The notes under the pieces are model-generated. The model was not told the origin of the DNA and did not search any database. It saw nothing but the letters and a program-made list of their open reading frames with translations. The position numbers and the translations under genes are program-made. This document shows, in pieces, positions 9,938 through 22,033 of a DNA stretch of 22,033 bases. This DNA is from a virus: positions 1 to 22,033 of the IMG/VR virus record IMGVR_UViG_3300037963_003509. One strand, written 5' to 3'. Positions within the stretch are counted from its first letter, which is position 1. Every line of letters begins with the position of its first letter.

Positions 9938-10167
9938 AAGTAATCAATATCTTTAGCCCTTACTAAAAGACCTTCACCCTCATAGGGAATGAACACAGAA
10001 ATATTTTTATCTAGAAGTTGTAGATATCTTATCTCTTTTGCGGTTGAAGCTTTGACTAAATAAAACTCTCCATCAACTTGCTCAGCACGAAACATAAAAT
10101 CTACTTCAGAAAAGTTTTCTCTTATTAAGACAAAAGGATTTGTAACTTTGACTTTGTGATTAAACAT
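9934..10167 (-). CDS. Small hypothetical protein
   Basis: This 77-residue protein has alternating hydrophobic residues that suggest a mostly beta fold (KVKVTNPFVLI, VDFMFRAEQV, EFYLVKA, SVFIPY, GLLVRAKDI). It has no motif I recognise. It overlaps the preceding gene by 8 bases and the RuvC-like gene by 4, so it is clearly part of the operon. The overlaps and codon phase support a real gene; no function can be assigned. Confidence 0.65.
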   Translation of the reverse strand: MFNHKVKVTNPFVLIRENFSEVDFMFRAEQVDGEFYLVKASTAKEIRYLQLLDKNISVFIPYEGEGLLVRAKDIDYL

Positions 10168-10423
10168 TATATTTATTTTCGTCGTCTAAAAAAACAGGAG
10201 ATGCTTCTCCTAGATTTTTTAAAAGATATTTATATTCATATATAGAATACGCTTCTTTTTTAGATATCTGATTATTTTTTTGGATTATATCAATGGTTTT
10301 CTTTTTTGAATAACAAGCGACAGGCACTCTTCCATAACCCTCAGCAACACCAATGAAAGCGTCTCGAAGAGATTTAATCGTCAATAAACAGTTGTCTGGA
10401 TTTTCTTGAGTGTCAGAAGACAT
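10160..10423 (-). CDS. Small hypothetical protein
   Basis: This 87-residue protein is lysine- and tyrosine-rich in its second half (KKKTIDIIQKNNQISKKEAY, then YEYKYLLKNL). It has no recognised motif, no signal peptide and no membrane segment. The start ATG at 10423 shares one base with the stop of the HTH protein gene (TAATG), a typical re-initiation junction. Its end overlaps the next gene by 8 bases. Function unknown. Confidence 0.63.
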   Translation of the reverse strand: MSSDTQENPDNCLLTIKSLRDAFIGVAEGYGRVPVACYSKKKTIDIIQKNNQISKKEAYSIYEYKYLLKNLGEASPVFLDDENKYNV

Positions 10424-11016
10424 TACTTATCTAGAGTATCTGCATCTATTATTTTAGCGTCTGCTTTTTCAACGGCTCCTTTACCACGATCAGCTTTTGT
10501 ATTATTAAGAATAGATATATCAATTTGAACTTTTCCTGAACCTCCCCCACTTTTTGCATTTAAGCCTAAGTTTCTACGAGCAATCTGATCAAGTGTATCT
10601 AATTCTCTAGGAGTTCTAGGAGCCTTAAAGTTTTTCTTACCATCACGTATTAGCTGCAAAGCTGTAGCAGCCATGTATGCTTGATATATTTCAGCAGGAG
10701 ATGCCTGACCCTCAGCTACTTGTTTGAGTAAATACTCTTCAGTCAGCCTAGCATTATGTTCATCAAGCTTTCTCTCTTCTTTACTCAACTCTTGTTTTCT
10801 AGGATCTAAATCAGATTCTGCTTCAACAGATTTAGTTTTATCTTTCGGATTATTTTGACTGCTACTTTTAGCTTTCACCCCACTTTCTCTAAGCCATCGT
10901 CTAAGTGTAGACGTGTGTATATCCAGTTCTTTACTTATACTTACAAGCGTATAATCTTTTTTATACAGCTCTAAAGCACGTTCTATCAGTTCTTGTTTTT
11001 TAGTTATCTTAGCCAA
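10423..11016 (-). CDS. HTH DNA-binding protein, probable terminase small subunit
   Basis: This 197-residue protein has an N-terminal helix-turn-helix of the Hin/homeodomain-like type (about residues 23-48: LVSISKELDIHTSTLRRWL). A charged, likely coiled-coil middle (70-105) follows, then a conserved-looking region (PRTPRELDTLDQIARRNLGL, 134-152) and a glycine-rich segment before a strand (KVQIDISIL). This order, HTH then oligomerisation helices then C-terminal strand, is that of phage small terminases, and the large terminase gene is its direct neighbour, though divergent. The start is TTG at 11016; an ATG just upstream is followed at once by a stop. A transcription regulator of the divergent region is the main alternative. 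Confidence 0.6.
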   Translation of the reverse strand: MAKITKKQELIERALELYKKDYTLVSISKELDIHTSTLRRWLRESGVKAKSSSQNNPKDKTKSVEAESDLDPRKQELSKEERKLDEHNARLTEEYLLKQVAEGQASPAEIYQAYMAATALQLIRDGKKNFKAPRTPRELDTLDQIARRNLGLNAKSGGGSGKVQIDISILNNTKADRGKGAVEKADAKIIDADTLDK

Positions 11017-11058
11017 ACTACATAATATATACTATTGTTATTGACAATTTTCAAGTTT
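11017..11058. promoter_or_regulatory. Divergent promoter/operator region between the HTH gene and terL
   Basis: This short A/T-rich gap separates the two divergent arms. On the minus strand TTGAAA (11054-11049) and TATATT (11029-11024; spacer 19) or TATATA (11031-11026; spacer 17) form a promoter that would start within 1-3 bases of the TTG start. On the plus strand TATACT (11028-11033) is a good -10 for terL, without a clear -35. The two -10 boxes overlap. A perfect inverted repeat, ATTGT-TATTG-ACAAT (11034-11048), lies just beside them and could be an operator. All of this is pattern-based. Confidence 0.45.
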
Positions 11059-12822
11059 ATGAGCAACAAGAAACATGTATATGAGCCACGAATAGTAGCA
11101 AACTCTGACAACATGGATGTCGGAGGTTTAATAATACCTGCCACAAACACATTAACTGCATTGCTATATGGGTTCAGACATCACGAGTCTAACAAAGCTA
11201 AAGAGTATTTCTTTTGGAGATTGTGTGATGAGCTTTGGAACCACGATGAGTTACCCGAAAAGATGATGGTCAAACATCCTTGGGCCACTGAAATGATTAA
11301 AGCGGTTATTGCTAACCGATATGTTTCTATTGGAGGAGCTGCTTCTTCTGGAAAGTCACACACAATGGCTGCGTGGGGGATACTAAACTGGTTAGCTGCT
11401 CCAAGAGATACACTGGTTCTTCTTACATCAACTACGTTAAGGGAAGCCCGTAAACGAATATGGGGTTCTGTTATTAGTTTACTCTCTGTTATTGAGGGAG
11501 CCCCTCTTAAGGTTAGAGATTCAATTGGCAATGTCGCTTATATAAATGAACAAGGTAACTTGATTGAAAGAGCAGGGCTGTCATTGATTGCAGCAGAACG
11601 CAGTAAAACTAGGGAAGCTGTTGGTAAGTTTATTGGTATAAAACAGAAAAGAGTAATCTTGATTGGTGATGAGCTTGCTGAATTGAGTGAAGCAATACTA
11701 CAAGCTGGTCTGTCAAACTTATCAAAAAACCCTTATTTCCAGCTAATTGGAATGAGTAACCCTTCCTCTAGGTTTGATGCGTTTGGTATCTGGAGTGAAC
11801 CTAAACATGGTTGGGATTCCGTAGATACAAATATAGATGATCGCTGGAAGACGAAGTGGGGTGGTCAATATGTAAGGTTCGATGGAGAGCGAAGTCCTAA
11901 TATTGTAGCAGGTGAAGATGTTTATCCTTGGCTACCTACACAAGCAAAACTAGATGAAGACAAAGCCTTACTTGGTCCTGAGTCACGGGGTTACATGCGA
12001 ATGGTTAGAGCAATCTTTTTTGACTCTGATGAGACTGAAGGGATTTATTCTGAAGCAGAGCTAACTAGAACAGGTAGTATGTCTGACACAGAGTGGCAAG
12101 GCAAACCAACACCTATTGCAGGTCTTGACCCTGCATTTACTAACGGAGGAGACCGAACAATTTTATATACTGGCTTTGTAGGGTACAACCACACAGGTCA
12201 GTTTTGTGTGTCATTAGGAGAGCCTCACCATCTTAACGACGATGCCACCAACAAAGCCGTGCCTCGGACTTACCAGATTGTTCGCCAAGTAAAAGAGTTG
12301 TGCAAGAAGAAAGGCATCTTGCCAGAAAACGTAGCGGTTGACGCAACAGGTGCAGGAGCCCCTTTCTGCGATGTTCTTGCTGGGGAGTGGTCTGATCAGA
12401 TACTTCGTGTTTCATTTGGTGGAAAGGCTTCAGATAGAAGGGTTTCTGCAAACAGTAAAATGACTGGGCAGGAACTTTATGTTAACAGAGTCAGCGAACT
12501 TTGGTTTGTTGGCAAGGAACTTATTAGAACAAAGCAACTGTTTGGAATTAAGAATGATTTAGCTCAAGAGATTACTAGTAGGAATTACGACATGATCAAA
12601 GGGTCAACTTTAAGAATGAAGATTGAATCAAAGCCAGAGTTTAAATCTAGGTTTGGCAGATCCCCTGACTTAGCTGATGCTGCTTTTCTATGCCTTGATT
12701 TAGCTAGGCAGAAGCATGGATTGGTAGCAGTAGAACCTTTAGAAGAAGGGTCTTTGGGTTTCAATAAGAAGCGGAGATCTATGAAAGACATGACAAACAT
12801 GCTAACGATAAACCCTATATAA
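11059..12822 (+). CDS. terL: Terminase large subunit (packaging ATPase/nuclease)
   Basis: This 587-residue protein drives DNA into the prohead and cuts the genome. The ATPase domain has Walker A GGAASSGKS (residues 92-100) and Walker B VILIGDE (199-205). The RNase H-like nuclease domain has GLDPAF (Asp357), VAVDATGAG (Asp428) and SPDLADAAF (Asp537, Asp540), the usual acidic set. I chose the ATG at 11059; the frame stays open back to a TTG at 11035 but those codons overlap the promoter and inverted repeat. It stands alone at the head of the plus-strand arm, followed by a 127-base gap, rather than directly after a small terminase gene. Confidence 0.93.
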   Translation: MSNKKHVYEPRIVANSDNMDVGGLIIPATNTLTALLYGFRHHESNKAKEYFFWRLCDELWNHDELPEKMMVKHPWATEMIKAVIANRYVSIGGAASSGKSHTMAAWGILNWLAAPRDTLVLLTSTTLREARKRIWGSVISLLSVIEGAPLKVRDSIGNVAYINEQGNLIERAGLSLIAAERSKTREAVGKFIGIKQKRVILIGDELAELSEAILQAGLSNLSKNPYFQLIGMSNPSSRFDAFGIWSEPKHGWDSVDTNIDDRWKTKWGGQYVRFDGERSPNIVAGEDVYPWLPTQAKLDEDKALLGPESRGYMRMVRAIFFDSDETEGIYSEAELTRTGSMSDTEWQGKPTPIAGLDPAFTNGGDRTILYTGFVGYNHTGQFCVSLGEPHHLNDDATNKAVPRTYQIVRQVKELCKKKGILPENVAVDATGAGAPFCDVLAGEWSDQILRVSFGGKASDRRVSANSKMTGQELYVNRVSELWFVGKELIRTKQLFGIKNDLAQEITSRNYDMIKGSTLRMKIESKPEFKSRFGRSPDLADAAFLCLDLARQKHGLVAVEPLEEGSLGFNKKRRSMKDMTNMLTINPI

Positions 12823-12949: not shown

Positions 12950-13978
12950 ATGGCAAGAAATAGATCATCTTTAGGTAGAACTCTTAAGCAACTAAACCGA
13001 AAGCGAGAAGACATTAAAAAACCAGTATCTTCTTACGCACCTGCTTCAAAACCTCGTAAAAAATCAAAGCTCGATCAGATTGTAGAGGCTGAAACAATAA
13101 AACGAACTACGGGAATATCTGGTAAAGACCCTAAAACAGATAGAGTGATACCAGTTATTGGGGCCGATTCTCCTGCTGACGCTGATCGTTTTATAAGAGA
13201 GAACCCTAACGATTTTGTTAGAATGTCACCTGGTATAGTTGAAGCTAGAAAGAGTAATCCTAGATTTGATCCAGATACAGGAAAACCTAAGAAGTTTATG
13301 GACACTGCTCAAGGCCGTCAGTTCTTCACACCTACAGATAAGAACGCTGAAGGAGCTAAGTTTGTTAAAGAGTTTGGTACATATGGTTTATTAAGTGATC
13401 CCGCAGAGATTCCAGAAGAAGGAGTACGTAATATCACAAGACCTAAAAACCCAAATGCAAAAAAGCATAGGGAGTTTGCAGCAGAATTAAGACAAAAAGC
13501 TGCTGGTAATCCTAATTACTGGAACGATCCTGCTAATGCACAAGAGTTGGCGCAGATGTTAAATAGAGGGCCAAGTCTTGGATTAACTAGTTCTCAGATT
13601 ATGAATTTTATTCGTAAAGATCAGCAGAAAGAAACTACCATAAAAGATCAAAACGAAGGAAGAAGTATGGTTGAAGGTATTGTACGTACCCCAAGCCCAT
13701 ATAGTTTGATTGGATCTAGAGATCCTGCTGATATAGCTTTTGCTAGGAATCGTGCTTACCCTAATCAAGGTGGTAAGAACAGTAATTTTTTGAAGAAGTT
13801 TAAGCGACAGATGGGTAGGAGAAATAAAGGTAGAGGTAAAGGTAAAGGTAAAGGCAGAGGTCAAATCAGTGCGTTAGCGGATGCTTTTAAAAACCTACCT
13901 CCTAATCTTCAAGAAGAGTTAGTAAAGAACAACCCTAGCTTTTCATCATTACTTCCTGCAATAATTCCTGTTAAATAA
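12950..13978 (+). CDS. Basic virion-arm protein with Gly-Arg-Lys tract, function unknown
   Basis: This 342-residue protein is very rich in Lys, Arg, Asn and Pro. The N-terminal 40 residues are strongly basic (RTLKQLNRKRED, SKPRKKSK). Near the C-terminus a run of Gly/Lys/Arg (residues 289-304, GRGKGKGKGRG within it) is encoded by hexamer DNA repeats. A final short hydrophobic segment (SSLLPAIIPVK) ends the protein. I recognise no enzyme motif. The composition suggests DNA or RNA binding, or an internal virion protein packed next to the genome. It lies between terL and the giant gene, so a structural or ejected protein is plausible. No Shine-Dalgarno sequence is visible before the ATG. Confidence 0.7.
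   Translation: MARNRSSLGRTLKQLNRKREDIKKPVSSYAPASKPRKKSKLDQIVEAETIKRTTGISGKDPKTDRVIPVIGADSPADADRFIRENPNDFVRMSPGIVEARKSNPRFDPDTGKPKKFMDTAQGRQFFTPTDKNAEGAKFVKEFGTYGLLSDPAEIPEEGVRNITRPKNPNAKKHREFAAELRQKAAGNPNYWNDPANAQELAQMLNRGPSLGLTSSQIMNFIRKDQQKETTIKDQNEGRSMVEGIVRTPSPYSLIGSRDPADIAFARNRAYPNQGGKNSNFLKKFKRQMGRRNKGRGKGKGKGRGQISALADAFKNLPPNLQEELVKNNPSFSSLLPAIIPVK
13829..13858 (+). repeat. Tandem hexamer repeat encoding the Gly-Lys/Arg tract
   Basis: Five units read GGTAGA, GGTAAA, GGTAAA, GGTAAA and GGCAGA, followed by a diverged GGTCAA. They encode Gly-Arg/Gly-Lys pairs in the basic protein. The period is in frame, so copy-number change would only alter tract length. Confidence 0.85.
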
Positions 13979-13985
13979 TTTATTA

Positions 13986-14981
13986 ATGGCTATCGACGAC
14001 GAACAGGCTTGGAATAAAATTTCACGGGATGCCATGAGAGATGGCTTTCGTGATGTAGCATCAAAAGCAAAGTATTTAGCGGGTCAAGCTGCTTACTCTA
14101 AACCTTTAGGAGCTATGACTCCTGCATGGAGTAGGGCAAAGACTCAAGCTCAGCAAGCTGTAAACAATATTAGGTTTGGGGTTACTGATGATTTAGCTCT
14201 GCAACGGCAGCAAATGTTTCAAGATATTTCTCTATCTGGACTTAGGCCAGGTACACAGAATAGATTAATGAGGCAGATGGAATCTGAGATTGATCCTATT
14301 ATCGACAGGCAATTGCAATTAGATACAATGCAGAAGAACGCTGAGTTAGATATGGCTTCTGATGCTGCTATGGAACAACTTGCTCCAGACATTACTTCGA
14401 TTATGACTGATCAGGCAATGCCTATTGAGCAAAAATTTCAGAACTTATCTGCCTTGCAAATGAGTGTTCCTGCACTGGCTGGTAATAAGAAGTACGATAG
14501 TTTGTTTAAATCTGCTTTTGATTCTCTTCGTAATCAACAATGGACAAGATCAGTAACTCAACAGAGTTTATTGGATGTTGATGAAAAAGCTCTTAAAAGG
14601 CTCGCAGAGCAAGGTAACGTAAATGGTTTAAAAAGCTACATAGAAAGGCGTGGCCTTCAACAAGGACAGTATGACTTAGAGCAATATAGAGCTCTAGCTG
14701 AATCTCAAGCACAAAAAGGTGCAGGTTTGTTAGGTGTTGGAACTGTTGCTAGTATACAGGATCTTCGCAAAAAACTTCAGACTGGTACTTTTGATAATGC
14801 AGAAGCATTTAATTTAGAACTTGATTCAGCTATATCAATTTTACAACAGCCTGCATTAGAAAGTCTTAGAGTTAAAGATCAAGGTCAAATTAAAGAAAAT
14901 AAGAAAAAGTTACTTAAGATTTTAAGAGATACTTTAGATAACGATGATAAAGCGAAACGAGGACTTTTTGGACAAATATAA
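13986..14981 (+). CDS. Helical glutamine-rich virion-arm protein, function unknown
   Basis: This 331-residue protein is mostly helical by composition and rich in Gln, Ala, Leu and Asp (for example TQAQQAVNNIRFG, RLMRQMESEIDPIIDRQLQL, DAMEQ-type segments). It has no signal peptide, no clear membrane segment and no enzyme motif that I can see. The start ATG at 13986 lies 7 bases after the previous stop and the giant gene begins 2 bases after its own stop, so the three genes form one transcription unit. Position just before a giant internal-type protein suggests an ejected core or scaffold protein, but this is context only. Confidence 0.7.
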   Translation: MAIDDEQAWNKISRDAMRDGFRDVASKAKYLAGQAAYSKPLGAMTPAWSRAKTQAQQAVNNIRFGVTDDLALQRQQMFQDISLSGLRPGTQNRLMRQMESEIDPIIDRQLQLDTMQKNAELDMASDAAMEQLAPDITSIMTDQAMPIEQKFQNLSALQMSVPALAGNKKYDSLFKSAFDSLRNQQWTRSVTQQSLLDVDEKALKRLAEQGNVNGLKSYIERRGLQQGQYDLEQYRALAESQAQKGAGLLGVGTVASIQDLRKKLQTGTFDNAEAFNLELDSAISILQQPALESLRVKDQGQIKENKKKLLKILRDTLDNDDKAKRGLFGQI

Positions 14982-14983
14982 TA

Positions 14984-17900
14984 ATGGCAAATAAAGAAGA
15001 ATTTTTTGAAGATCCCTTTAACACACTTTACACAACAGAGCCTCCAGAGACAGATTATGGTCAGTCCATATTAGATGCTTTTGATGGGCGTAAGGTGTAT
15101 GATGAGAAGGGTAATCCGTTAGAAGTCTCACCACGTCCTGAGATAGAGAAAGACTTAGAAGATCCTTTTTCTGTTTTTGAAGAAGAGGAAATTAGTTATG
15201 ACCCGTACAGAGCAGATAAGCCTCCTACCTACCAAGAACTTAAAGACGCTGGGGTTGAAGATTATGATATCTTAACTCTAAGTAATTTTGAGAAAGCGAC
15301 AAAAAAGAAATTAGCTGATGCTGCTAAGGTTATTCCTGCCTCACCGCCACAGTCAACAGATGCTTTATCTATTGAAGAAACAACAGAAAGATCATTCCCT
15401 AAACTAGAGTCTGGTCCTTTAAGATCTCCATCTGGAGTTAGTTTTAATGATTGGTTGTCTGAGAACACAGAAAGAAAAAGGTCTGATTCATCTAGCTACA
15501 GAGACTGGATTAATTATAGAAGAGAAACAGGGTTTAGAGAAGGGGTTGATCTTATAGATTTTGAGAAACGGGTTCAAGAAGATATTGGCCGATATTTAAA
15601 GTCTGGTGAGACTGAAGAAATTGATCCTTCTTTTGTAAATAAAAGAGAAGAAATATTAGGAGCTAGCTTTGTAGAAGATTATTTAGGTATCACAGAGTCT
15701 GAGTTCACAGAAGATTTAAATGATACACAGAGAAAAACTTTAATCGATAGTGCGAAAATTGAAGCTGTTGATAGAGGAGATTATGCTTTCGCCCGTGTAG
15801 AAGTTGAAGATGGAAATGGTAATGTTGGCTCTAGGATTCATCTTGGAAAGAATATTATAACAGATGTTGAAGAGCTAAAGAGAGAGGCTGACAAGGCTCT
15901 TAAGGCAGGGTTGATTGAACCTGTAGACTTAGCAAGCATCCAAAAGATTTTAAAGAAAACAAATGTAGGTGATCTCCAGTTTAATAGAGCTCAGCTAACT
16001 CAGTTGAACCTTGAGTTAGACAACATAATGGAGGACACCACTAGTATTGCTAACGCTTTTTTACAAAGAGTTTTGCATTACCAACTTGTGCCCTCTAATA
16101 CTAAGTATAAAGACACAGGACTTACAGGTGGTAAAGGTTACTTAAAACCCTTACAACCACCAACTATTCAAGACGCTTTGCAGTTCAATGCACTAGTACA
16201 AGATGATTTGTATAGACCTGTACAGAAGCAGTTGTTGGTAAACGATTACAGGAGACGTGGTCGTTATGAGGAGGCAAACGATATATTAAACTCAAAGGAT
16301 ATGGGTTGGGTGTCAAAGCATATCGGAAATGAGAGCACTCATAAGTATGGTTTAAAAAATTTACGTAGTGCTATATATGAACAAGCTGCATCTTTTGTAA
16401 ATTCAAATGGTGTTTTTAAATACTTTGAAGATGTAAATTCTTTGTATAAAAACATTAGGATTACTCCTAAAGGAACTATCTTAATACACCCTAAACTAAA
16501 TTATAATAGAGAGTATTTTAGTTATGCTATAAATACTATGAAAGATAGTGAGGGTAATAAAACCAAGCTGTCTTCAGAACAAATAGAGGAGCTTTATGCT
16601 GCTAGAGAAGCGTACATATTAAACAATTGGGAAGAGATTGATAGGCTACTTAGAGAAGTAGCAGATGATTCTGTAGCAACTAAATGGTCAGAGAGCGTTG
16701 CTGAGAATGATAAAAAAAGTCCAGAGGATGCGCTATCAAGAGTAGAGCTTTTTGATGAGTTTTATGGTGATACCGACGAGAATTTTAAATCTCTTTTTGG
16801 CGAGGGTGTTAGAGCTTCAATAAAGAAAGCCTTCACCGATATGTATCATGGGATTGCTGCGTCTATTTTTGGCAGTGAGTTTTCGGCTAATGTATTAGTT
16901 AAGGAAGCGGAGCAAGAGGCTGATCGTAGAAAGTATAACAGTATATGGGGAGATGAGTTTGGTACAATGTACGACATCTCAACATTGGTAGCTCCAGTAG
17001 CTGCTGATATTTTTGCAGGTGGAGCCATTAAGAAATCTGTTGCTGGTATTGGTGCGGTTAGTAAGCTTGCCGAAGCTGGCGTAAAGCCTGGCTTATTAAA
17101 TTATAGTAAGCTTTTTGTTGGTTATGGTGTAGGCGCAAGGAAAGGAATGTCTTATGAAGACCTTGCAGATAACTTTATTAAACAAGGTACGTTAAATACT
17201 GCTTCTGTTAAGGAATCAGTAACTCAATCGATCAAGTCTTATAATACTTTACTAGCTGATAGACTAAACATTGATGCTGCTATCTTCTTACCAGCAGCTA
17301 ATAGAAGTGCTGCTGGGATGTATTCTTCTGTGTACAGTTCTCTAAAAGCACAGAACCCAAATGCTACACATGAAGAGTTGCATGCTATGTCAATGCTACC
17401 TGCTTTAGGTGGTGGTGCGCTTACAGGATTCATAACATTTGGTTTTTCTAACTTTGGTTTCGGTGGCTTAGAAAAAGTATTTTTAGAGAATGTTCCTTTT
17501 AAGAGAGCAGTTGGAGTTTTAAAAAATATTAAAGCGAGAGGGCTGGGATCAAAAGGACTTCCAATTACAGATGATAGTGCTAAGCTGTTTTTTAAGAACA
17601 TAATGGATAGAGAGATCCGAAAAGTTCTTGCTAATAATTTAAGAGAAGGTGGGTTAGGTGTTGCTGGAGAAGGTTTCTCTGAGGCTTTTGAAGAAGCCAT
17701 AGATACTTTCGTAAACTCTTTTGTGGAGACTTGGGCTACGGGCGAGGAGATGACTTTTGGTGATAGGGTATTGCAAGCAGGACACGCTTTCAAGCTTGGA
17801 GGTATTTTTGGTGCTGGTGCAAGAACAGCTAGGTCTGGTACTAGAGCATTGATAGGAGCTACTCCTTTAGGGGAGATGATGGAGCCTGACTTTTCAGATC

Positions 17901-20900
17901 CAGAGTTATACGCTGAAAGAGCTATAACAGAAGTGTCTGAAGAACTTGAGCAAAAACTTAAGGATACTAATTCTCCTTTAACGGCTTCTTATATCAGTCA
18001 GATATTACAAACACCTGCTGGAGCTACTGATACCACTGAGCCAGAGAGTATTCCAAGACCTCGTATACTTTCAGTCGAGATAGAGGATAGACAAAAAGAT
18101 TTAGAAGAGTTAAGAGAAGCTATAAAATCCCAAGATCTAAGAGAAGGTCCAGGTAGTATTACAAACCTACCTAAGATTAGTGATAGTGGAAAGCTTGAGC
18201 TAGCTAAGGCTGATGTTGATTATAATGTTTCTAGTGATGGACTTATACTAGGAATTAAAGATGAGAGTGGTAATTGGGTTGGGTTTGCCCCAGACCAGCC
18301 GAAGCAAGTCCGTCAATTAGATACGGATGTAAATGATTTTACAAACCCAGTTGTAGCTCCAGCAGATTTAGGAACTGTTCAAGGAGTTTCTGTTGAGCTT
18401 GATCGATGGGCTACTTCTGATATGAACAAAGCTAGCTTGAAGGCTCGTGGTATATCTATTGATACATCTTCAAAGACAGAAGGCATAGCAGATGTGGACA
18501 TAACAAGCTCTCGTAAAGGGAAAGGCCAGCCTGTCATTAGAATAAATAAAAAGGGTTTGTCTGATAGATTGGCAGAAGTTTCTGAAGGAGAGCGTTATAA
18601 TCTTTTCAATAAAATTTTAGGTGAGGAGCTAACACACGCTGCTGAGATTGTTCAGTTCATTAAGGATTACGAAGATACAAATGGTAGTTCTCCTACTGAG
18701 CAAGAGCTTAAAACTTACGTCAATAGCAGGCACTTAGACATGTACAATGACATGGCTGTACAAGAGCGTAAGAATGTTGTTGCAGCTTATTTAAATATTA
18801 AGCAAGACGAAGTTGTTCTGCCACAAGATTCAACATCTACAAGACCAGCATCAATGTCTGAACAGGCTATAGCAGCTGAGTTCATACGGATGCTTGTGCA
18901 GTATGAGAAGTCTGAGCAAACAACAGAGTCTGCTCAGTGGCTAACCTCTAATGAAATTGCCACATTTATGCGTGGTGTTTTTAATAGGATTAAAAAAGGA
19001 TTTCTTTCTTCAAAGAAAGGATTCGCTGGTCCAGTAGCACAGGAGTTAAGAAAACATTTAGATAACATAACTAAAATATTAGCTGACTTTACTGAACAAG
19101 ACATAAAGACGGCCCCTAAAGAAGTCATCACTGAGGCTATTGATGAGTCTGCTCTTATCGAGGACATTGATCACGGTAATAAAGAATGGCAGTTCTTAGA
19201 GAAACCTGGCACACCACTTAAAGATGTTGCTTGGAATAATAGAGGGAAGAAGAGAGATGGCTCTGCCATGCTGCATAGAGATAAGAAGGTTAAGGTTGTT
19301 AAAAGGATTGATACAACCTCTAATAAAACAATAGGTGATCAAAGAAAAGATAAGTTTGAGCTCGTTGACCTTGAGTCAGGAGAAATTATCGGTGAGTATG
19401 GTAGTCAACTTGATGCATTTAACGCATACAGAAAGATCCAAGAAAAAGAATCTAGTATTGAGAGTGACTTTGAAAATGTTGAACCACCTCAAGATCCTAC
19501 TATAAACAACGATACTGATCAGAAGTATGTTGACCTTGTCGAAAGTCAATCAATTGACGAGAACATGGATGAGATTCAAGACATGGTTTTTGAAGCCGTC
19601 CTAACACCTCAGCAAATACAAGCAGTTAAAGGTCATGCGGAAGCTGTTGCTTCTGGCAAGCAAGATCAAGTTAACTCTGCTAGAGCACAAGTTGTTGGGT
19701 CTGGTTTAGGTACAGGAGTACTTGACGCTATTAATGGTGTAAGTAATCCTACAAAAGCTTTGAAGAATGTGGTTGAGTCTTTTGGATTAGATTCAACACC
19801 TATAGTTGAAGATAGTTCAGGCACACTGCAAACTCTTAGTGTTAGGTTCCCAACGTCTGATCAAATCATTCCGCTTGATCCTAAAGAGGCTGGTACAATT
19901 GATAGAAGTGAAGAGCTACGGGTTGTTGAACTAGCTAAAAAAGCAATTGCCATTGCCCAGCAGTGGGGTATTGACACCCGTTTAGTTACCAATCCTCCTG
20001 TAGATCGTGGTGCAATGTGGGTAGATAACAATGTTCTTTACATTAACCCTAACCAATTATCTTTAGAAACCTCTGAGCTTTCTGAGCAGGGTGCTTCTGA
20101 TTATGTGGAAGCATTGTCTTTTGTACAAGTTGCTATTGTTCAATCTTACGAGACACATTCTCAGCAGGAAATCAAAGAGCTTATAGACGAGACATCAGAT
20201 GCTGAGATAGCTGATCTTGTGTCTGAAGTTTATTCTGAGCAGGCTAGAGACGCTGCTATTAATAGGGCTAGTGGAAATGCTGAGGGTGGTGAACTTACCG
20301 CAGCACAAGAGTTGACTAACTTGATGAGATACAAGATGGCTAGAGATGCTGTCCGTATTGTTAATGGTCAGGCTGCTATTGATGTTGATGGTTATGTAAA
20401 CCAGAAACCAACCTTCAAAGGTTTATTTGTAGCATTCTTAAATAGAGTAGCTAAAAGATTTTCATATTATAAAAGGATAAAAGCAAACAATGCAGCCTAT
20501 GCTGACATGCTTAACAACCTTATAGGTAGACTAAGAGCTTATAAAGGATCTAGGAGACAGCCATCGCACATGCGTTTTGATCCTAGAAAACCATTTGCTA
20601 CTGTTGAAATGGCTCAGGATATATTAGCCGATCAACAAGCAACTTATAGCGAAGATGCTATTCCTACATCAGCTTCTAAGAACGCACGGGTATCACTAGC
20701 TAATGTAGCTAACAGTCAGTCTTATCATAGTGGGCTAGCTCAAAGTATTTTAGATAACCATAAAGGTAAAACTTTAGATGGCGACTTAGATCTACCTGCT
20801 GTGTCCACACCAGCTGAGATTTTAGTTGCTTACTTTGAAGCTGACTTAAAATCTTTTGATGGTGTATTTGATTCACTAGATAGTAGTAAGAGTGGGTTTG

Positions 20901-22033
20901 AGTTATATACTGCTATGCAGGATAGGTATAAGTACCTTAGTGAAGGTGATCCTGACAGACCTGCTCTTAGTTTACTAAAAGCTTACTTGGATTTTGTTGA
21001 TGTCTCACAGGTATCTCTTATGAAGAGTTCACCTAATAGTTTCTCTGGTTATATAACCAGAATGCTTAAAGATCCAGTGACTCAATTACAGTCCGCTAAC
21101 ACGCCAACTGGTTTCGTTAACAACTGGACTTCGTTTGTAATTGCTGCAACAAAGGCAATAAAGTCGAATCAGAAAGGAGACTTTAATCAGACTGAGTTTA
21201 GAGAAGTATTAGACTCTGCATATACAGAAGATGAGAATGTCATTAAAGATCCTAATCTTCTAGCTAACTCTGATGCAAGAAGACAAAGTTATAACATACA
21301 ACTTACGGCTTCGTTCGGTAATAATCATTTAGAAACTGTAAACTCTAGAGTAGGAACTGAAGAGTTTGCTGAGTCATTCGACAAGCTTCTTGAGGTATTT
21401 GAAATTGATCCTATAGACAAGAACAATTTGTATAGGATGTACAACAGATTGCCTGAGTCAATTAGAGGACAGATGGCTGAGTTTGGTGTGCAGCCTAATT
21501 CGGATCAACAGACTTTTATAAATGGTTTCTCACGGCTTAGCAAAGTTGAAGGGCTTCCTAGTAGAGTCTACGCTATAAGTGATTTAGTTCAGTCTATAGC
21601 AGGATTACAAAACAATTTAAGAGAGAAGCGTGTTCCAATTAAAGCATTGAACTTAGCTTTCTCAGAAGATGCTTCTGATATAAAGCAGTCAGCTGTCGGT
21701 GTGTTTAGGCTTATTGAGTATTTAAATGGTGAGCCTTTAGTAACTGATGGTGAAGTTTTAGACACAGACTTTAATCCTATTGAAGCTGCTGTTGTAAGGA
21801 AGCATAGGTTTGGTGTGCAGTTGCCTACAGATGTTTCTCCAGGTTCAAAGTACATTGGAGGATTGACCATTGCCAATGACGGAACGCTACCTGTCGCAGG
21901 TTTCAAGGCTCAAGTTGAAAAGAGATCAGGGATTACAAGGTCAGAGATTGATCTTGTTAAGTCTTTAGTAGACGCATACTCATTTATAGATACAGACACT
22001 CAAGAGAAAAGAGTTAACGTCAGTGATGTTATT
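14984..22033 (+). CDS. Giant virion/polyvalent-type protein with duplicated zincin-like modules (partial, 3' end beyond window)
   Basis: The frame opens at ATG 14984, 2 bases after the preceding stop, and I read no stop through to 22033: 2350 codons, continuing past the edge. Residues 1-250 are acidic and Pro/Ser-rich. About 655-965 are hydrophobic and Gly/Ala-rich (TLVAPVAADIFAGGA, PALGGGALTGFITFGF, GEGFSEAFEEAIDTF), possibly membrane-inserting. Residues 1130-1375 look like a zincin-type module: strand VIRIN (1184-1188), helix EELTH (1214-1218), then FMRGVFNRIKKGF (1328-1340). A small beta domain (FELVDLESGEIIGEY, 1458-) follows. Residues 1640-1850 repeat the module: VLYIN (1684-1688) and LFVAFLNRVAKRF (1814-1826), without the motif. 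Size and style recall internal ejection proteins or phage polyvalent proteins. Family unknown. Confidence 0.85.
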   Translation, partial: MANKEEFFEDPFNTLYTTEPPETDYGQSILDAFDGRKVYDEKGNPLEVSPRPEIEKDLEDPFSVFEEEEISYDPYRADKPPTYQELKDAGVEDYDILTLSNFEKATKKKLADAAKVIPASPPQSTDALSIEETTERSFPKLESGPLRSPSGVSFNDWLSENTERKRSDSSSYRDWINYRRETGFREGVDLIDFEKRVQEDIGRYLKSGETEEIDPSFVNKREEILGASFVEDYLGITESEFTEDLNDTQRKTLIDSAKIEAVDRGDYAFARVEVEDGNGNVGSRIHLGKNIITDVEELKREADKALKAGLIEPVDLASIQKILKKTNVGDLQFNRAQLTQLNLELDNIMEDTTSIANAFLQRVLHYQLVPSNTKYKDTGLTGGKGYLKPLQPPTIQDALQFNALVQDDLYRPVQKQLLVNDYRRRGRYEEANDILNSKDMGWVSKHIGNESTHKYGLKNLRSAIYEQAASFVNSNGVFKYFEDVNSLYKNIRITPKGTILIHPKLNYNREYFSYAINTMKDSEGNKTKLSSEQIEELYAAREAYILNNWEEIDRLLREVADDSVATKWSESVAENDKKSPEDALSRVELFDEFYGDTDENFKSLFGEGVRASIKKAFTDMYHGIAASIFGSEFSANVLVKEAEQEADRRKYNSIWGDEFGTMYDISTLVAPVAADIFAGGAIKKSVAGIGAVSKLAEAGVKPGLLNYSKLFVGYGVGARKGMSYEDLADNFIKQGTLNTASVKESVTQSIKSYNTLLADRLNIDAAIFLPAANRSAAGMYSSVYSSLKAQNPNATHEELHAMSMLPALGGGALTGFITFGFSNFGFGGLEKVFLENVPFKRAVGVLKNIKARGLGSKGLPITDDSAKLFFKNIMDREIRKVLANNLREGGLGVAGEGFSEAFEEAIDTFVNSFVETWATGEEMTFGDRVLQAGHAFKLGGIFGAGARTARSGTRALIGATPLGEMMEPDFSDPELYAERAITEVSEELEQKLKDTNSPLTASYISQILQTPAGATDTTEPESIPRPRILSVEIEDRQKDLEELREAIKSQDLREGPGSITNLPKISDSGKLELAKADVDYNVSSDGLILGIKDESGNWVGFAPDQPKQVRQLDTDVNDFTNPVVAPADLGTVQGVSVELDRWATSDMNKASLKARGISIDTSSKTEGIADVDITSSRKGKGQPVIRINKKGLSDRLAEVSEGERYNLFNKILGEELTHAAEIVQFIKDYEDTNGSSPTEQELKTYVNSRHLDMYNDMAVQERKNVVAAYLNIKQDEVVLPQDSTSTRPASMSEQAIAAEFIRMLVQYEKSEQTTESAQWLTSNEIATFMRGVFNRIKKGFLSSKKGFAGPVAQELRKHLDNITKILADFTEQDIKTAPKEVITEAIDESALIEDIDHGNKEWQFLEKPGTPLKDVAWNNRGKKRDGSAMLHRDKKVKVVKRIDTTSNKTIGDQRKDKFELVDLESGEIIGEYGSQLDAFNAYRKIQEKESSIESDFENVEPPQDPTINNDTDQKYVDLVESQSIDENMDEIQDMVFEAVLTPQQIQAVKGHAEAVASGKQDQVNSARAQVVGSGLGTGVLDAINGVSNPTKALKNVVESFGLDSTPIVEDSSGTLQTLSVRFPTSDQIIPLDPKEAGTIDRSEELRVVELAKKAIAIAQQWGIDTRLVTNPPVDRGAMWVDNNVLYINPNQLSLETSELSEQGASDYVEALSFVQVAIVQSYETHSQQEIKELIDETSDAEIADLVSEVYSEQARDAAINRASGNAEGGELTAAQELTNLMRYKMARDAVRIVNGQAAIDVDGYVNQKPTFKGLFVAFLNRVAKRFSYYKRIKANNAAYADMLNNLIGRLRAYKGSRRQPSHMRFDPRKPFATVEMAQDILADQQATYSEDAIPTSASKNARVSLANVANSQSYHSGLAQSILDNHKGKTLDGDLDLPAVSTPAEILVAYFEADLKSFDGVFDSLDSSKSGFELYTAMQDRYKYLSEGDPDRPALSLLKAYLDFVDVSQVSLMKSSPNSFSGYITRMLKDPVTQLQSANTPTGFVNNWTSFVIAATKAIKSNQKGDFNQTEFREVLDSAYTEDENVIKDPNLLANSDARRQSYNIQLTASFGNNHLETVNSRVGTEEFAESFDKLLEVFEIDPIDKNNLYRMYNRLPESIRGQMAEFGVQPNSDQQTFINGFSRLSKVEGLPSRVYAISDLVQSIAGLQNNLREKRVPIKALNLAFSEDASDIKQSAVGVFRLIEYLNGEPLVTDGEVLDTDFNPIEAAVVRKHRFGVQLPTDVSPGSKYIGGLTIANDGTLPVAGFKAQVEKRSGITRSEIDLVKSLVDAYSFIDTDTQEKRVNVSDVI

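Follow-up and report, generated by a model that had tools for sequence, protein, structure and literature searches.

The window analysed here is an entire IMG/VR virus record of 22,033 bases from an uncultured aquatic phage, and it ends within a giant open reading frame; the question raised by this locus is what kind of protein that frame encodes. It starts with an ATG two bases past the stop codon of the preceding gene (encoding 331 aa), has 2350 codons and zero stops, and is open at its 3' end, in agreement with the initial annotation, which had described an uninterrupted plus-strand frame of at least 2350 codons reaching the last base. The acidic N-terminal region noted at that time was also seen, with a net charge of -16 in the first 110 residues and of -100 for the whole frame. 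A supposed hydrophobic middle proved to be mild, with Kyte-Doolittle averages of about +0.6 at aa 651-700 and 801-850, but no 19-residue stretch above 1.6, and the hydropathy scan gave no clear transmembrane stretch in the window protein.

The genes for the terminase large subunit (TerL), a 342-aa protein, a 331-aa protein and the giant protein follow one another in the same direction, the giant ORF being the last of this plus-strand unit (Table 1). With TerL and two other plus-strand genes directly upstream, it sits beside the late (virion) genes. Two smaller proteins followed by one large protein is the arrangement of podovirus ejection clusters, and it is present here; no sequence homology to known ejection proteins was shown. 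Left of TerL the genes lie mainly on the minus strand and encode a terminase-small-like HTH protein, resolvase, helicase, exonuclease, PolA and primase, with an amidase endolysin at the left end. A lipoprotein-like ORF (120-389), outer-spanin-like and with an LLMVALLPSC lipobox, overlaps the amidase endolysin gene (352-906), which suggests a lysis cassette for a Gram-negative host. Two small genes, one at either end of the replication block (1723-1995, and 10160-10423 on the minus strand), match phrog_13182; 18 members of this family are spread over 12 of 13 compared genomes, several of which have two. A 113-aa protein (872-1213), present in 12/13 genomes, gave a weak match to the phage metallo-protease families phrog_1233 and phrog_87.

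Table 1. Features of the giant ORF and its plus-strand unit (aa, residues of the giant protein).
Feature	Position	Strand	Evidence
HTH protein, terminase-small-like, divergent from TerL	10423..11016	-	
Terminase large subunit, heads the plus-strand unit of the giant ORF	11035..12822	+	phrog_2, E=1e-15; 72-92% identical in group
342-aa Gly/Lys/Arg-rich protein, very variable; second candidate co-ejected protein	12950..13978	+	
331-aa protein, 2-base gap before giant ORF; candidate smaller co-ejected protein	13986..14981	+	blastp clustering, 12/13 genomes
Giant ORF, first 2350 codons, runs off contig end	14984..22033	+	homologues in 20/20 related records; dN/dS ~0.18
Acidic N-terminal stretch, aa 1-110, net charge -16	14984..15313	+	charge computation
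N module conserved core, aa 440-1110, mostly helical, partly hydrophobic, no named family	16301..18313	+	alignment of 19 homologues; AlphaFold2
Zincin-like domain Z1, aa 1115-1420, EELTH at aa 1214 (18623-18637)	18326..19243	+	profiles, model
Stretch without assignment, aa 1421-1589	19244..19750	+	no family match; blastp match in G001 only
Zincin-like domain Z2, aa 1590-1890, paralogue of Z1	19751..20653	+	profile-profile, alignment
Start of variable region, aa 1891-2350, without assignment	20654..22033	+	rest and C module past contig end

Searches of Pfam and PHROGs with the window protein returned nothing significant, in keeping with the earlier view that it belongs to no named family, and neither tblastn against 50,697 phage records nor a scan of IMG/VR for close relatives gave a match to it. 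With the giant protein itself giving no matches, relatives were reached by way of the terminase, which found 417 matching IMG/VR stretches. A giant ORF homologue was found in all 20 of the related IMG/VR records examined, and 19 homologues were retrieved for comparison, comprising one with a scaffold gap (G001) and 18 complete copies of 3,030-5,394 aa, two of which (L132 and L137) are identical in length and near-identical in sequence. A profile scan of IMG/VR with the conserved N-terminal (N) module returned 149 encoding stretches. The phage group is large (417 terminase matches) and aquatic, and some of its contigs are 56-63 kb long.

The closest relative, G001, encodes a giant protein 71% identical to that of the window over 2328 aligned residues. 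Comparison of the two genes gave pN 0.18 and pS 0.59, or dN 0.21 and dS 1.15 (dN/dS ~0.18), and constraint was present in each 200-residue block. The giant ORF is under purifying selection throughout its frame, and this constraint, together with the 71% identity, shows that it is neither a chance frame nor an artefact. Misassembly, or genes fused by error, could appeal to the single contig that represents the window and to a gap of 10 Ns in the scaffold of the closest relative, yet it is hardly credible given selection over the full frame and 18 contigs with homologues of 3,030-5,394 aa, all of them uninterrupted rather than broken by in-frame stops or divided into separate genes. In G001 the gap follows after 3,200 codons, and since the next ORF, of 1,330 codons and in the same direction, carries the conserved C-terminal (C) module, the gene can be put at ~4,560 codons. 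From this estimate and the lengths of the complete homologues, the window holds about the first half of its gene, and the full-length protein is probably ~4,500 aa. In the last 350 codons of the window (20984-22033), synonymous divergence from the closest relative (L120) falls from ~0.5-0.7 to 0.1-0.3, a pattern that suggests recent recombination in the variable region.

Among the relatives the ends of the protein are constant and the middle is not. The N module spans 860-1,105 aa and the C module 1,024-1,136 aa, while the middle, Z2 excluded, ranges from 843 to 3,136 aa; for an average pair of relatives, blastp coverage is 82% in the N module, 96% in the C module and 21% in the middle. In the same phages the portal candidate is 69-74% identical and TerL 72-92% identical within the group, so the middle must be exceptionally fast-changing or recombining. 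Constant ends around a freely swapped middle suggest, as far as sequence comparison can tell, a delivery vehicle for a changing cargo. The group itself is remote from cultured phages: its portal had no tblastn match among 50,697 cultured phage records, and its terminase only matches of 23-25% identity. No informative PHROG was matched by the head and tail genes tested, PDB profile searches with the N module, the C module and the portal and major capsid protein candidates gave chance-level matches only, and a C-module scan of bacterial and archaeal genomes returned no match. The terminase scan also picked up four contigs of metagenome-assembled genomes (L215-L218), in bins assigned to Blastopirellula, Opitutae and Altibacter; as these are unrelated groups and the bins conflict, no host is claimed.

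Within the window protein, the core of the N module (aa 440-1110) has 24 invariant columns in the alignment of 19 homologues. Its AlphaFold2 model is nearly all helical and poor (pLDDT 57), and a fold search with it gave nothing significant. An HEELH sequence at aa 796 was considered as a third zincin and rejected, its last His alone being invariant in the alignment. The initial annotation had pointed to two zincin-like modules, and two homologous domains are indeed found (profile-profile E=4e-9), but both are without the canonical HExxH. Judged by their profiles, Z1 and Z2 are true paralogues. Z1 reads EELTH in the window and its nearest relative, HEMVH in L123 and HELAH in L122, while for Z2 most relatives keep an EExAH/EExxH motif and a downstream Glu, both of which are lost in the window copy. 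Since neither domain of the window keeps HExxH, they are probably not active proteases and probably persist as structural or binding remnants. The Z1 model (pLDDT 73) has an alpha-beta-beta-beta-alpha(motif)-alpha core with three strands, and this predicted order of a helix, three strands, the motif helix and a further helix is the same as that described for polyvalent metallopeptidases (PMC5512222). Fold searches of PDB and BFVD with this model gave no significant match; the non-significant BFVD rows include SprT, IrrE, virion RNA polymerase (vRNAP) and polyvalent proteins.

The middles of the relatives carry recognisable domains. ART-PolyVal, an ADP-ribosyltransferase (ART), scored above the Pfam cut-off of 31.2 bits in three of them, L123, L129 and L131 (scores of 57.4, 40.8 and 32.1 bits across the three). 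GNAT was found in L121, L129 and L134, in most cases near cut-off or under it, a methyltransferase in L129, below cut-off, and DUF7178 in L127 and L129. L129 combines a zincin, GNAT, methyltransferase and ART in one polypeptide. A zincin with canonical HExxH occurs in ten relatives and none was found in the window part; by profile comparison (E=2e-10, probability 97%) it is homologous to the C1 zincin of N4 vRNAP. Matches to phrog_2206 occur in only two relatives, at profile positions 2102-2248, and overlap their HExxH zincin. In the 2,350 residues of the window, an incomplete copy, no enzyme domain was recognised by Pfam or PHROGs.

A link to virions comes from the C module. A tblastn search with one C module matched ORF31 of Pseudoalteromonas phage Y3 and gp85 of Pelagibacter phage HTVC027P, and a search with Y3 ORF31 led to gp123 of Cellulophaga phage phi18:3 and to StenR_269, annotated as 'virion-associated RNA polymerase'. 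Profile comparison with the C module gave E=2e-38 for Y3 ORF31, E=4e-27 for phi18:3 gp123, E=8e-22 for HTVC027P gp85 and E=9e-8 for StenR_269, against E values of 0.3-0.4 for unrelated controls (N4 gp50 and phi18:3 gp114). On these profiles the C module, which is absent from the window, is homologous to phi18:3 gp123, a protein annotated as structural with the GenBank note 'annotation based on experimental MS/MS proteomics analysis'; HTVC027P gp85 is annotated as a 'putative structural protein'. Y3 ORF31 is preceded by a protein of textbook polyvalent type, carrying ddrB-ParB, ART, MTase, LPD5 and LPD1 domains. In Y3 a stretch of ~330 residues at the end of ORF30 recurs at the start of ORF31 (24147-37521), and this giant gene may have been split or duplicated by assembly. 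Against ten N4-like C-terminal domains the C-module profile gave E=0.13, and no homology to N4 C2 was found. A hypothetical protein of ~3,600 aa from the 249-kb Enterobacter phage SonariX is related to the C-terminal region of N4 vRNAP.

The closest parallels are ejected and polyvalent proteins. N4 gp50, which is ejected along with gp52 and gp51, consists of a membrane-spanning N-terminal domain, a cargo RNA polymerase, the HExxH domain C1 and a helical C2 of ~1,125 aa (PMC12633501). It too is a giant and the last of three genes, its layout parallels that of this family, and C1 is homologous to the HExxH zincin of the ten relatives. However, this family has an exchangeable middle where N4 has its RNA polymerase, with no single-subunit RNA polymerase domain detected, the N and C modules have no detectable homology to those of N4, and the zincin-like domains of the window are of another type, without HExxH. 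T7 gp16 is likewise the largest and last of a three-gene ejection cluster, gp14-gp15-gp16 (PMC8954989), as the giant ORF is after two smaller genes, and the order terminase, smaller proteins, giant matches both gp52-gp51-gp50 of N4 and the T7 cluster; gp16 is, however, much smaller, and the window protein has no match to a transglycosylase or other family. Polyvalent proteins such as Y3 ORF30/31 are also giant and multidomain, encoded near late genes and equipped with zincin, ART, GNAT and methyltransferase domains, the zincin-like metallopeptidase being their commonest hub domain (PMC5512222), and the Y3 gene pair shares the C module with this family. The present family differs from them in keeping its ends constant throughout a phage group and varying in the middle alone, and in that the sole recognised enzymatic-type domains of the window part are degenerate zincins. 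The C-terminal ~700 residues of phi18:3 gp123 are homologous (E=4e-27) and its gene is also the last of its unit, whereas the protein has 1,935 aa and no match to the N module. HTVC027P gp85, the last large gene in its plus-strand run, has a homologous C module but only 1,342 aa and no large variable middle.

With a probability of roughly 0.72, we take the ORF for the 5' half of a gene whose giant product, probably ~4,500 aa long, is an internal virion or ejection protein; the phage would be podovirus-like and its host Gram-negative. By analogy, the best reading is a giant polyvalent protein laid out like N4 gp50, in which exchangeable cargo would replace the RNA polymerase. Such a protein would be made late, together with the terminase unit and the two smaller proteins encoded upstream. 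It would be packaged in the capsid and driven through tail and envelope, either before the DNA or along with it. Packaging, membrane and ejectosome functions would fall to the constant N and C modules, and the middle would be the cargo taken to the cytoplasm, consisting of ADP-ribosyltransferase, GNAT, methyltransferase and zincin in relatives and of unrecognised folds in this phage. The sequence comparisons establish the ORF and its conservation, the design of constant ends and variable middle, the enzyme domains of relatives and the C-module homology, while presence in this virion, injection, the division of roles between ends and middle, and podovirus morphology are all inferred. The MS/MS link to the virion runs through the C module, beyond the window, via phi18:3, a phage outside this group. 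The initial annotation had placed the giant protein with the polyvalent or ejected proteins, and this is supported for what is a late-region phage gene; its virion-borne status is supported by the relatives' C module and not proven by the window. A podovirus morphology is hinted at by podoviruses among the C-module relatives, the lack of a second tape-measure candidate, and a portal candidate whose best match, although non-significant (E=1e-3, probability 22%), is the Y3 portal.

That the phi18:3 homologue is annotated as structural is no evidence of injection, and the middle of the window copy is without a recognised enzyme, which would suit an inner-core or tail protein of the virion that does not reach the cytoplasm and whose middle is structural or acts only in the envelope. 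This is rather unlikely, as the ART, GNAT and methyltransferase domains of relatives have intracellular targets and no obvious role in a passive structure. Those same effector-like domains could instead speak for a host-takeover protein that is produced in the infected cell and does not enter particles, but the gene lies on the late side and adjoins the terminase, and its C module is common to the phi18:3 protein annotated as structural from MS/MS and to proteins annotated as structural or as virion-associated RNA polymerase, making such a role improbable. A tail tape-measure protein of a long-tailed phage would account for the great length and the mostly helical prediction, and the group yielded no second candidate for that role. 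Against it stand lengths varying from 3,030 to 5,394 aa among phages with portals 69-74% identical, enzymes in the middle, a gene beside the terminase and away from the head-tail genes, and the lack of any match to a tape-measure family, whole-length or otherwise; we regard it as very improbable. A broader form of the ejection-protein reading, that the family is a general injector whose constant N and C modules (together ~2,000 aa) package and translocate whatever lies between them, is tentative and at present the odds are somewhat against it.

As a class, polyvalent and giant ejected proteins were already known (Iyer et al. 2017, PMC5512222), and this family is new. The locus had been put forward as undescribed biology, and this holds for the family but not for its class, polyvalent proteins injected with the DNA, which was described in 2017 (PMC5512222). 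The family, its design of constant ends and variable middle, and the C module shared by four separately annotated phage lineages were not found described in the literature searched, which was non-exhaustive. One C-terminal module, unnamed in Pfam, unites phi18:3 gp123, HTVC027P gp85, Y3 ORF31 and the StenR_269 'vRNAP', and the phage group to which the window belongs has no close cultured relative. If the family were a general injector, one lineage would have swapped unrelated effectors of 840-3,100 aa by recombination while keeping the vehicle, and N4, with its giant RNA polymerase, would represent a specialised case of this principle. Giant injected proteins have been described in a few model phages, and the division between cargo and delivery is little understood. 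The 18 complete homologues are natural variants that share their ends and differ in their middles, and they offer a comparison by which delivering and acting parts may be mapped; the exchangeable region would be a place to find new anti-host enzymes, and the ends could be tested as carriers of foreign cargo.
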